The notes under the pieces are model-generated. The model did no database searches and had not been told where the DNA came from. It saw nothing but the letters and a program-made list of their open reading frames with translations. From positions 1 to 64,000 of the forward strand of contig JUEB01000001.1 in assembly GCA_000802095.1 (NCBI GenBank): a DNA stretch of 64,000 bases, in the 5' to 3' direction. Each line of letters opens with the position of its first letter. The stretch's first letter is position 1. Both the position numbers and the translations under genes were made by a program. The stretch comes from Peptococcaceae bacterium BICA1-7. GTDB lineage: Bacteria; Bacillota; Desulfotomaculia; Desulfotomaculales; Desulfocucumaceae. Below, in pieces: positions 51,255-56,328 of the stretch.

Positions 51255-52022
51255 CTACCGGCTGTTGGGAAGTAAATTTGCTATTTTTTTCAGCATACCA
51301 CTGTTCCCGGCTGCATTTATGAACCAGTAAACCGCTGATTTGAGCATATGATTGTCGTCCCTTAACGACTTAAGGAAAACCTCCCTGTCAAATCCAGCCT
51401 CCTTGATCAGGAACTTATTCTTATTGATAAAGTCAATGAAAGCATCGGTATCATAGCAAACCATTCTGAAAAGGCTGCGGATAACCCCGTCCAGGGCGGC
51501 ATCGCCGGTAAACCTGACCAGCATGGGAATGTTTTTAAAAGAGGCCTCTATATCCTCATAGGGTGCCATCTCCTGGGACTGCATCCACTCTGTAACTGTC
51601 CACTCCCTGCTCTCATTGAGCCCCTGGCACTTTTTGCTGTCAAAGGCGAATTTATAGGACCCGGGTCCGGCTATGTCAACAGGGGCCATGCGGCAGGACC
51701 AGGGCCGCACATCATACACCGAGCAGCCCTTGGCAGTAACAAAGGGACATTGCAGCAGGTCCTCTTCATTCATTTTAAGGTATACCACGGGAAAAATAAC
51801 CATTGGAGGCCCTATCTCCACAGTATGCTCTTTTAAAAACTGGGCCGAGGAAAGGCCCAGCTTCTTTTTAAGACGGTACACATCGTAAGGAGTCAAAAAA
51901 ATGTTTATATCCCTGCAGCACTGCCCAAAGCAGGGAAGATCCCCGTGGCAGTCAAATCTGAATTTCTCCTCCGGACCGAAAAAACTGTTTTCCGAAAGCT
52001 TATTCCCACTATTCACGTCCAT
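51255..52022 (-). CDS. YkgJ-family cysteine-cluster protein
   Basis: 255 residues. N-terminal CHGDLPCFGQCCRDINIFLTPYDV and the middle QCPFVTAKGCSVYDVRPWSCR carry the Cys pattern (CxxxxxCCxxx...C...C...C) of the YkgJ family, proposed to bind zinc or an iron-sulfur cluster. The C-terminal half is poorly conserved. A paralogue lies just upstream at 52241-53068. Function unknown. Confidence 0.85.
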   Translation of the reverse strand: MDVNSGNKLSENSFFGPEEKFRFDCHGDLPCFGQCCRDINIFLTPYDVYRLKKKLGLSSAQFLKEHTVEIGPPMVIFPVVYLKMNEEDLLQCPFVTAKGCSVYDVRPWSCRMAPVDIAGPGSYKFAFDSKKCQGLNESREWTVTEWMQSQEMAPYEDIEASFKNIPMLVRFTGDAALDGVIRSLFRMVCYDTDAFIDFINKNKFLIKEAGFDREVFLKSLRDDNHMLKSAVYWFINAAGNSGMLKKIANLLPNSR

Positions 52023-52183
52023 TTATATTATCCCTTTCCAAACAGGCTATAGGTTATTTGATTATATTTTAGAGTTTCTACATATTACCTCTAAAAACCT
52101 TCCCCAGGCAACCGGGCCGTCAAGAAGAAAAAAAATCAGGTCCGGCCAATATGCTTTATTTAGCCTATAAGGAGTGCCCAAAC

Positions 52184-52211
52184 CATTCTGACTCCTGTCT
52201 CCTGTATTCCG
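52184..52211 (-). repeat. Heptamer repeat, four units
   Basis: On the minus strand: CGGAATA, CAGGAGA, CAGGAGT, CAGAATG. Same family as those at 7.8-8.0, 35.6 and 53.2 kb. Located between the two YkgJ-family genes. Confidence 0.75.
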
Positions 52212-52240
52212 ACCGGGGAGCAGTGCCTATAAGCGTCTCT

Positions 52241-53068
52241 TCAGGAGTCCTTTCCTGTAGCCAGTATCCCCTTTACCCGGTCCATCAGGTTAAAGTCTTC
52301 CCTTTCCTCATCCCCATCTTTCACCAGTGGGCCGAAGCCAAACCCGGCTGCCATCTCAGTGAGAAAAACCTTTAATGCCCTCATACGCCTTAAGTAAAAC
52401 TCCTCGTGCCCCACTTCCTCCACCGGAATGCCCATTTTGGCCCTGAGCACCTCCGGACCGTAGAGAAAAGGCATAATCATCCGGGCTATTTTGCTGTTCA
52501 TCCAGCGCCTGGACTCCAGTTTCACGTTTACATAGTTTATTAGCTCAAAATATATATCCGACCGGTTGTAATATTCCAGGGAGCCGGCATCATCCAGCCA
52601 CTCTTTGAGGGTCCACTGCCTGGACGCGCTATGGCCGAAACAAAAGGCCTGCTTTTCCACCATAAAATACTTTTCCTCTTTGCCGCCCTCCGGAGTAAAC
52701 CGCACCGCTCGGCCCACCGGGTAGGTTCTGCAGTTTCTGGACCTGGCCGGGTATACAGAGCACCTGCCGCCCTCCAGCATAAAGGCGCAAGTACCTCTCT
52801 CGGCATCATACAGTTTGACATAGGGCCAATTTGTATGGGGGTCCTCCTCAATTTCACAGTACTTTTCCAGAAAGTCTTTCCCGCTCATACCCAGATGCCG
52901 GGCCATGGTCTCCACATCCCAGGGGTCCAGCATTATTTTTATGGTATTGCAGCACCTTCCCATGCAGCGGTCATCACACTCAAAACTAAAGGCATCCTCC
53001 ATGCCCAGCTCACCCGCGTCTCCCCTTTCAAATTTTTCAACAGTATCCCGGTGCATTTTTAGAGACAT
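52241..53068 (-). CDS. YkgJ-family cysteine-cluster protein, paralogue
   Basis: 275 residues with the same Cys pattern as its neighbour: CDDRCMGRCCNTIKIMLDPWDV, CAFMLEGGRCSVYPARSRNCRTYPVG and a later C (AFCFGHS). The two proteins align over their first 180 residues, differing in the C-terminus, so they arose by duplication. Start ATG at 53068 with AGTATGTC upstream (weak); an alternative start is not obvious. Function unknown. Confidence 0.83.
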   Translation of the reverse strand: MSLKMHRDTVEKFERGDAGELGMEDAFSFECDDRCMGRCCNTIKIMLDPWDVETMARHLGMSGKDFLEKYCEIEEDPHTNWPYVKLYDAERGTCAFMLEGGRCSVYPARSRNCRTYPVGRAVRFTPEGGKEEKYFMVEKQAFCFGHSASRQWTLKEWLDDAGSLEYYNRSDIYFELINYVNVKLESRRWMNSKIARMIMPFLYGPEVLRAKMGIPVEEVGHEEFYLRRMRALKVFLTEMAAGFGFGPLVKDGDEEREDFNLMDRVKGILATGKDS

Positions 53069-53215: not shown

Positions 53216-53328
53216 CAGGCATTCCCACAAGTGAAATAAGGCTTATTAACCAGGCCGCAGGCATGAATGAATTCTGACTCGAAAAAAAAATACAGTATAA
53301 GCATTTTTTTTCAAGGTAGGTGATCATA

Positions 53329-53553
53329 ATGCCGGAGCGCCTTGGGGTGTTGTACAATCCTGCTAACGGCCGGGTAAAAACTATAAAGTATTCCGGCAGC
53401 CCCCTGGTAATAAAAGAATCCTCCTGACTGTGCAGAAACAGAGTCTCCCAGGGCTGGGAGTTTTACCCTTTAAGCGAGGCCGGAGTAAAAGACCTAGTTT
53501 ACTTCGATGGCAACTGGCATATACCCTCCCCAACCGGGGAAAAAGATGAATAG
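53329..53553 (+). CDS. Small ORF with in-frame UGA and following hairpin (candidate selenoprotein or nonsense pseudogene)
   Basis: ATG at 53329 with AAGGTAGGTGATCATA upstream opens a frame of 74 codons to TAG at 53551, broken by one in-frame TGA at codon 33 (53425-53427). The part before (PERLGVLYNPANGRVKTIKY) and after it (GVKDLVYFDGNWHIPSPTGE) reads as one protein-like sequence. 17 bases after TGA is the hairpin CTCCCA-GGGC-TGGGAG (53445-53460), so the loop, starting with GG, lies 23 bases after the UGA, within the range for bacterial SECIS elements. A cysteine lies two residues after the UGA. Either selenocysteine insertion, a nonsense mutation or a sequence error is possible; no family is recognised. 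Confidence 0.45.
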
Positions 53554-53705
53554 CCGAACAGAGGAATGGGGACACACCTGCTGAAGTTTACTTAGTCCTT
53601 TGGAGACAGGAATGTCCCCGATCGGTACTTACTTTGGGGTCTGAGGAATGTCCCCGATGCATAAACGGCGGGGAGACTTAATGATAGTACCTGTGGTAAA
53701 ATAGA

Positions 53706-53817: not shown

Positions 53818-53941
53818 TCTCCCGTCTCCTGACCGCTGGTACTACCCCCAAGCAGTCTCCTGACCTGAGGTAATACCCTAAAGCTGTCTCCTGACCAGAA
53901 GTATTACCCTCAAGCTGTCTCCTGACCGGAGGCACTACCCT
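53818..53941. repeat. Tandem 31-bp repeat, four copies
   Basis: Copies at 53818-53848, 53849-53879, 53880-53910 and 53911-53941, each with the core GTCTCCTGACC and an ending of ACCC. The first copy is the most divergent and merges with three heptamer units (53811-53831). The array ends 9 bases before the stop codon of the SulP gene. Confidence 0.85.
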
Positions 53942-53949
53942 GAAGCATC

Positions 53950-55806
53950 CTACTTTTTGAGCATAACATCCACGGCGTAAATCTCGGCCCGCAGAAAGGG
54001 CTCCTCCAGCATTCTCTCCAGCATTCTTACGAACCCGGTCACTGGATTCAGGCCCGAGGCGGCCACCGGCTTCAAATCCTCCACCACCTGGGCGGCAGTC
54101 TGCCTGGCCACTGCCGGCATCTCCTTCAGATAAGCTTCAGCCACAGACATGGACCTGCACAGTGAACCGAAAATTTCCCTCTCTGACATAAAAACATTTT
54201 CTTTTCCCACCAGCCCGGTGATGTGGGCCTTTTCCAGGGACCTGTATATGTCAGGCCTTACCCCGCTTATGATAACTTTCCTGCCCTCTCCGGAGGATCT
54301 TTTTATAAAGGTCTCAATTATCTCCAGGCAGGTGATGTCAATTGATGAAACGCTGCACATGTTGAGCACCATCACCCTTGAGCCTGTGCAGGAAGCCCTG
54401 TCAAGCTTTTCATCAAGGTCCATGGAGGACCCGAAATAAAGGTCTCCCCCAATGTCGATGGCAGCTACCGGAGATTCTGAAGCAGAGGACAATTCAGCCT
54501 CCCTGAAGCTTCCGGGACCGGCCCCCTCCAGCAGCCGCACCCCGGCGGCCCCGGTATTCTTAAGGAAAAGCACTATTGATATGGCTACCCCTGAGTATAT
54601 GGCATATTCCAGGTCCGGCGCCAGAATGGTGGCCGCAAAGGTAACCGCCAGCACGGTAGCATCATTTCTGTTGGAGGTCAGCACCTTCCTCACCGCATTT
54701 TTATCAATCATGGAGTAGGCCACCACCATGATGACCCCGGCCAGTGCCGCGCTGGGTATGAATTTGGCGTAGGGGGCCAGGAAAAGCAAAATCACCAGTA
54801 TGGCCACACCTGTAAGCACCCCGGCAAGCCTTGTCCTGCCGCCGTTTTGATAGGCTATGGCAGACCTTGTGAAGGAGCCGGAGCCGGCGATACTGCCCAG
54901 AAACGCTCCCCCCATATTGGCCATGCCCTGACCTATAAATTCCTGGTTGGAGTCAAGCTTCTGCTGTGTCTGGGCGGCTATGGCCTTGGAAATGGACACC
55001 GCCTCCACCAGACCTATTATGGCTATAACCGCAGCGCCCCCGGCAAGCTGGCCCATCAAACCAGGATCCAAGCTAATCATATTAAAGGGAGGAATAGCCG
55101 AGGGTATATTTCCGGTCAGCTTTATCCCAAATCTGCCCAGGTCAAGTATCATGACGGCCGCCGCGCAGAAAACCAGACCCAGCAGCGCCCCGGGAAGATT
55201 CTTGTTTATTTTTTTAAGTATAACGGTCACCAGAATGGTGCCCAGGCCCAGCCCAAAGGCTATGTAATTAATCTGATCAATGTGCTCCACGGTAAGCATT
55301 ACCTTTTCGATGGTGGAGTGATGCCCCTGGGGCAGGCTTATGCCCAGCAGCTGGTTGAACTGCCCCAGGGCTATAATCACCCCGGCCCCGGCGGTAAAGC
55401 CCACTATAACCGAGTGGGAAACGTAGTTCACCAGCTTGCCCAGCTTGAGCACGCCCATAATAAACTGTATGGCCCCCACCATAAAGGTGAGCAGGAACAG
55501 CATTTCATAAAAATTCTGCTGACCGGCATACATCCCCATTGTCCCGGCAATCAGCAGTGATATGGCATTGGTGGGGCCGGTGGCCAGGTGGTTTGAATTG
55601 CCGAAGGCTGAGCCCAGTATGGCCAGCACTATGGCCGCATACAGCCCGTAAACCGGTTCCACCCCGGCTATTATGGCATAGGCCATGGACTGTGGCAGGG
55701 CCACCACGGCCACCGTCAGGGCCGCTACAATATCGTTCCTTAGATAATCTTTCCTATATGTAGTTACTGTTTCATATAAAGGGAAAAACTTTCTCAACTT
55801 ACCCAT
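53950..55806 (-). CDS. SulP-family anion transporter with STAS domain
   Basis: 618 residues: membrane part of 10-14 segments (about 20-410) starting YRKDYLRNDIVAALTVAVVALPQSMAYAIIAGV, with the signature GPTNAISLLIAGTMG; then a STAS domain (about 440-545) and an extra C-terminal helical tail of about 60 residues (ending LNPVTGFVRMLERMLEEPFLRAEIYAVDVMLKK). Expected to import sulfate or another anion. Start ATG at 55806 lacks a strong ribosome site. A separate 50-aa peptide at 56176-56328 resembles this tail. Confidence 0.92.
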   Translation of the reverse strand: MGKLRKFFPLYETVTTYRKDYLRNDIVAALTVAVVALPQSMAYAIIAGVEPVYGLYAAIVLAILGSAFGNSNHLATGPTNAISLLIAGTMGMYAGQQNFYEMLFLLTFMVGAIQFIMGVLKLGKLVNYVSHSVIVGFTAGAGVIIALGQFNQLLGISLPQGHHSTIEKVMLTVEHIDQINYIAFGLGLGTILVTVILKKINKNLPGALLGLVFCAAAVMILDLGRFGIKLTGNIPSAIPPFNMISLDPGLMGQLAGGAAVIAIIGLVEAVSISKAIAAQTQQKLDSNQEFIGQGMANMGGAFLGSIAGSGSFTRSAIAYQNGGRTRLAGVLTGVAILVILLFLAPYAKFIPSAALAGVIMVVAYSMIDKNAVRKVLTSNRNDATVLAVTFAATILAPDLEYAIYSGVAISIVLFLKNTGAAGVRLLEGAGPGSFREAELSSASESPVAAIDIGGDLYFGSSMDLDEKLDRASCTGSRVMVLNMCSVSSIDITCLEIIETFIKRSSGEGRKVIISGVRPDIYRSLEKAHITGLVGKENVFMSEREIFGSLCRSMSVAEAYLKEMPAVARQTAAQVVEDLKPVAASGLNPVTGFVRMLERMLEEPFLRAEIYAVDVMLKK

Positions 55807-56175: not shown

Positions 56176-56328
56176 CTATACTTGTTTCAGCCTGGCCGTG
56201 AACTTGCCGGGGCGAATAACATTATTCTTCCTGTCATTACTCTTCAATAGCTCTGCCCTGTATATCTCGGCCTCGTAGAAAGGTCTTTCCAGAACCCTTT
56301 CAAACCATTCTTTAACAACATTAATCAT
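56176..56328 (-). CDS. 50-aa peptide resembling the SulP C-terminal tail
   Basis: 50 residues: INVVKEWFERVLERPFYEAEI, then YRAELLKSNDRKNN and FTARLKQV. The segment (F)xRxLE(R/E)PFxxAEIYxxxxL matches the last 25 residues of the SulP protein encoded 370 bases downstream. It has a good ribosome site (GGGGAGCTGATATAA) and its own terminator, so it appears to be a real, separately made small protein. No membrane segment. Function unknown; a regulator or dimer partner of SulP is one possibility. Confidence 0.65.
   Translation of the reverse strand: MINVVKEWFERVLERPFYEAEIYRAELLKSNDRKNNVIRPGKFTARLKQV

Follow-up and report, generated by a model that had tools for sequence, protein, structure and literature searches.

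A candidate family of small selenocysteine-only selenoproteins in Desulfotomaculum-like bacteria

Selenoproteins of the E. coli fdhF type, decoded by SelB, share an in-frame UGA, a hairpin within the coding region (the bSECIS) whose loop begins with G, and a host that possesses the sel machinery. The rules for the hairpin are explicit: a loop of 3–9 nt with G in the first two positions, a stem of 4–16 bp, a distance of 16–37 nt from the UGA and a minimum free energy of ≤ −7.5 kcal/mol (PMC13188914). A catalogue of 2026 recognizes 119 prokaryotic selenoprotein families (PMC13188914). GrdA, the selenoprotein A of glycine reductase, is a small family with Sec and without Cys homologues; D. reducens is listed there with eight selenoproteins, which belong to families other than the one described here (PMC1794560).

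The locus reported here lies in a window of 64,000 nucleotides (the whole stretch of DNA that was analyzed) and is like the fdhF-type genes in all three respects: an in-frame UGA, a G-first-loop hairpin in the coding region 23 nt further on, and sel machinery in the host. A family of this description is nevertheless absent from the 119 catalogued families (PMC13188914) and, as judged from Pfam and NCBIfam models (which cover all but a few listed families, those defined by cd or PTHR entries) and from the listing, bears no sequence relation to any of them. With GrdA it shares small size and Sec without Cys homologues, but there is no match to PF04723, and where GrdA has CxxU the new family has mostly U-x-C. 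The U-x-C spacing recurs in the thioredoxin-like Sec.2 proteins (PF13192) and in the SO_0444 efflux family (NF033936), yet neither model matches; the SelW-like and ‘CC/Se motif’ (NF041239, Moorella) clostridial selenoproteins are likewise small and stand-alone, but differ in motif order and sequence and also give no model match.

Scans of all 16 family members against Pfam-A and NCBIfam 20.0 returned no significant match, and sequence and fold searches of the PDB returned no family or structure (fold: none at E ≤ 0.001); a match to a ryanodine receptor covers 18 residues only and was taken as chance. The family was not found in the literature on selenoproteins that concerns Desulfotomaculum, Desulfoscipio or Peptococcaceae, although deposited, unpublished annotation may exist. 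The best reading of the sequences is that they represent a new family of small, Sec-only selenoproteins, most members of which carry U-x-C.

The gene and its homologues

The gene occupies positions 53329–53553 of the forward strand: an ATG at 53329, a single in-frame TGA at 53425–53427 and a terminating TAG at 53551–53553. With TGA read as Sec, the product is a protein of 74 residues, MPERLGVLYNPANGRVKTIKYSGSPLVIKESS-U-LCRNRVSQGWEFYPLSEAGVKDLVYFDGNWHIPSPTGEKDE, with Sec at residue 33 and, on inspection by eye, no apparent signal peptide or membrane stretch. The region ahead of the start (53310–53328) holds a Shine-Dalgarno-like AAGGTAGGTGATC followed by ATA and the ATG, and comparable G-rich sites lie 5′ of several homologues. 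The open frame with its ribosome site and lone TGA, as described by the first-pass annotation, is thus confirmed in the sequence. Because the flanking genes sit on the opposite strand, the gene appears to form its own transcription unit. GGGGACA / AATGTCCCCGAT motifs are repeated at 53560–53660.

A search of 100 relatives returned 15 further distinct loci (E-values 2e-35 to 1e-8), 29–78% identical to the window protein. Each has exactly one internal stop, which is always TGA, and in all 16 loci (window gene included) it aligns to one column. These loci are distributed among 14 genomes, 9 genera and 5 families (f1, f4, f6, f12 and f16) of a single order. Run over 113 genomes of the class, a profile built from them picks out those 14 genomes again, which represent 9 of the 55 genera; a sample of 398 genomes from the phylum adds no member, and plasmids and viral contigs yielded no relatives. 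The protein tree groups the homologues by host family, and two f12 genomes possess two paralogues. Among the hosts (names inferred) are isolates with closed chromosomes: the D. acetoxidans type strain (4,545,624 bp; PMC3035247), D. gibsoniae Groll (4,855,529 bp; PMC4148979) and Desulfoscipio sp. L (4,259,676 bp; PMC12896167). One homologue (L041) comes from a record whose label says Actinobacteria MAG; a contig of identical length (25,743 bp) exists in G002, a genome of the window's own genus, and the label is doubtful and looks wrong.

The first-pass annotation had named, as signs that would support a selenoprotein, Cys, Ser or U at the UGA column of homologues together with a conserved hairpin. 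The U (TGA) is there in every member and the hairpin is conserved, but whole-genome searches extended to the 113 class and 398 phylum genomes found no homologue in which this codon stands for Cys or another standard amino acid, including the Arg or Trp that would have spoken against a selenoprotein; distant Cys relatives may exist beyond the reach of the profile. Matches with sense codons at weak E-values (L025–L040, L059–L061) are fragments of other genes, for example alanyl-tRNA synthetase-like, or noise, and were attributed to chance. As found in these genomes, the family is confined to Desulfotomaculum-like sulfate reducers and their relatives, and has always UGA and never Cys.

Protein-level purifying selection acts on both sides of the UGA, as the earlier description of protein-like sequence had implied: pooled for the close pairs, pS/pN stands at 0.68/0.13 in the 27 codons before it and at 0.53/0.15 in the 16 codons after it, in the same frame. 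Only two of the 43 ungapped codon columns are without any variation, namely the TGA and one Trp TGG. Across the 16 loci the invariant residues are G6, L8, P25, U33, G42, W43, L56 and W63.

The machinery for Sec insertion, which had been named as a check, is present in the bacterium's own genome: selB (2.2e-102), an adjoining SelA-like ORF (L001:2610–4019, named selA by sequence and position rather than by model), a tRNA-Sec with anticodon UCA, selD with an in-frame UGA (5.8e-120) and two fdhA genes, again with in-frame UGA. Co-occurrence with selB is satisfied but not discriminating, since 110 of the 113 class genomes have the gene. Simple reassignment of UGA was rejected: it is unlikely in two of the hosts because their homologues (L014 and L017) also terminate on TGA.

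Residues, neighbours and putative function

Sec is the sole invariant redox-capable residue of the family. The Cys two residues on (TGC at 53431–53433, giving U-L-C), pointed out in the first-pass annotation, is present in the window gene but shared by only 11 of the 16 members; two paralogues have U-Q-H, and ULV, ULS and ULA occur once each. The U-Q-H group (L016 and L043; G030:C1:2258512 and G018:C24:298) has a small conserved protein of ∼90 aa (cluster 35) just upstream and a helicase-like gene downstream. Homologues with Cys at the Sec column are usual for bacterial selenoproteins, though not obligatory, and they are the one sign of support that was expected and not seen. The usual pairing of Sec with Cys therefore cannot mark the column as a redox site, which counts against the reading. 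Since no version with Cys turned up and Sec alone is both redox-capable and invariant, the chemistry of the family seems to need selenium.

An AlphaFold2 model built from two sequences (the window protein and one homologue) is weak, with a mean pLDDT of 58.5; it shows two strands, a helix starting at Sec and three further strands, and a thioredoxin fold is not evident. A reactive selenol at the start of a helix would have a lowered pKa. The 74-residue product would act in the cytosol, either as a selenol redox protein or as one whose selenol serves as a ligand. A selenenyl-sulfide probably links the selenol to the Cys two positions further along or, in members that lack this Cys, to a partner thiol.

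Two adjoining genes on the reverse strand encode proteins of the CxxCxxCC domain family (PF03692, by model match): one at 52241–53068, transcribed divergently from the selenoprotein gene, the other at 51255–52022. Together (51255–53068) they make up half of the genome's four such genes, and the same arrangement is found in the sister genome G002. The neighbours differ by host family: by model, PF03692 genes lie beside the selenoprotein gene in f1 and a few kb off in f12, while in f16 inspection of the sequences indicates macrodomain-like and threonine synthase-like genes, with HdrABC-like genes further off. No gene context is conserved between host families, and no operon partner is named.

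On the other side of the selenoprotein gene is a SulP-type transporter gene (53950–55806, reverse strand). Just past its end, at 53824–53947, a 31-bp unit (GTCTCCTGACCGGAGGTACTACCCTCAAGCA) is repeated in tandem, in four imperfect copies. A 50-aa ORF at 56176–56328 (reverse strand; VVKEWFERVLERPFYEAEIYRAELLK) is similar to the C-terminal end of the SulP-type protein (GFVRMLERMLEEPFLRAEIYAVDVMLKK) and may be what is left of a duplicate.

Selenol redox chemistry is probably the function to be favoured, its main rival being a role in metal handling, in which the selenol would provide a metal site or the protein would act as a metal-handling accessory rather than in thiol-disulfide exchange. The link with the PF03692 neighbours is no more than suggestive: only 4–8 such genes exist per genome, yet two of four adjoin the selenoprotein gene here and in the genus sister, in a second family (G018) one lies at a distance of ∼2.4 kb, and a similar neighbour accompanies the D. 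acetoxidans paralogue. Replacement of U-x-C by U-Q-H in one paralogue group points the same way. Against this, the association was spotted only in hindsight, no operon unites these genes with the selenoprotein gene, and the other three host families have no PF03692 neighbour by model match. We consider a metal role unlikely, but not so unlikely as to be disregarded, and continue to favour selenol redox chemistry.

The hairpin and decoding of the UGA

The hairpin, CTCCCA-GGGC-TGGGAG, lies at 53445–53460 of the forward strand: a stem of 6 bp (53445–53450 with 53455–53460) closes a GGGC loop (53451–53454) separated from the UGA by 23 nt. With a predicted energy of −8.1 kcal/mol it fits the bSECIS rules, and the match in spacing and loop claimed for it earlier holds across a conserved element. 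Twelve of the 16 members satisfy every rule, including the energy limit and an uninterrupted stem. The other four fall short of −7.5 kcal/mol when a perfect stem is required: three are weaker (L013, L016 and L043) and one has a mismatch (L019).

Taken alone, the hairpin is weak evidence, because shuffling the local 56-nt stretch does not make it fold any worse (z = 0.62) and because hairpins that fit the model at ≤ −7.5 kcal/mol follow 73 of the window's 2036 TGAs (3.6%). What raises the candidate above chance is that 15 other distinct homologues share the TGA column and that the hairpin covaries. The stem (21–26 with 31–36) is kept throughout the gapless alignment A2, and two of its C-G pairs are invariant. 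The outer pair 21–36 occurs as five pair types (GC, CG, AU, UA and GU), with both sides changed in six sequences, and the outer pair 22–35 as four (GC, UG, UA and GU), with both sides changed in five. The covariation score is 0.296, compared to 0.097 for shuffles (0 of 500 reach the observed value) and ≤ 0.223 for slid registers. Searches of Rfam gave sub-threshold chance matches only, none on the selenoprotein gene; a match to a consensus terminator on the minus strand (53460–53445) is this hairpin seen from the opposite strand and falls within chance numbers.

Sec insertion at residue 33 is, we infer, almost certain. UGA codon 33 would be decoded by SelB carrying Sec-tRNA(UCA), the hairpin 23 nt downstream would direct insertion, and translation would continue past the UGA to the TAG. 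The reading as a whole – a standalone gene for a small Sec-only selenoprotein, decoded by SelB via the hairpin and with a selenol redox or selenol-ligand role – is very probably correct on the sequences compared.

A different form of recoding would dispense with selenium: near-cognate readthrough (inserting, for example, Trp), or a programmed leaky stop that yields forms of 32 and 74 residues. Leaky UGA codons are known in general, the UGA is followed by C in many members, and UGA followed by C is a leaky context; some stopping at UGA occurs in any selenoprotein gene. But the hosts possess complete Sec machinery, which they use on fdhA and selD; a covarying hairpin at bSECIS distance and with the required loop G is expected for SelB specifically; and none of the members has a Trp codon at this column, though relaxed readthrough would permit one. 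We therefore regard readthrough as very unlikely.

Returning to SelB-dependent insertion, the hairpin itself could be a by-product of conservation of the A/S-Q-G-W protein motif, with some other element, or none, directing Sec insertion. The core of the stem does coincide with the conserved codons GCC/TCC-CAG-GGY-TGG. Since the stem overlaps these codons, every member was recoded synonymously 300 times: for many single members the recodings fold nearly as well, only some standing out, and the signal belongs to the family as a whole. Family-wide, the mean hairpin energy of −10.44 kcal/mol lies below all 300 trials (−7.84 kcal/mol, sd 0.69). Furthermore, the residue after the Trp covaries with the Ala/Ser four residues before it such that pairs are kept (TCC with GAG/GGA, GCC with GCY/GTC). 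Such pair-keeping codon changes count against a by-product because protein constraint does not predict them, and we hold this explanation to be highly improbable.

A nonsense mutation, or an error of sequencing, in an otherwise ordinary small gene was left equally open by the first-pass annotation, and a single genome with an unexceptional lone hairpin could not exclude it. This origin of the UGA is excluded with near certainty by the same codon being UGA in 16 distinct loci of 14 genomes, closed chromosomes included, and by the lack of any intact version with a sense codon. The suggestion of a new small selenoprotein made in the same annotation is, by comparison, well supported by the universally conserved UGA, the covarying hairpin and the sel machinery.

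Significance of a Sec-only family

A Sec-only state would be rare among selenoproteins, and GrdA is the known precedent. As to a fuller evolutionary picture – a family that arose and stayed Sec-only (no Cys form occurs in the sampled phylum), with a fold unseen so far, confined to Desulfotomaculum-like bacteria and with selenium indispensable for its reaction – we judge the case evenly balanced.

Most selenoprotein searches pair UGA with Cys in homologues and would miss a family that has no Cys form; standard annotation, for its part, would give this gene as a 32-residue fragment or not at all. It would add one more family to the selenoproteome of Desulfotomaculum-like bacteria, and it is carried by cultured type strains. 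It may be one of the few cases, like GrdA, in which Sec seems irreplaceable by Cys, and as such would offer a clean test case for what selenium, but not sulfur, can do.
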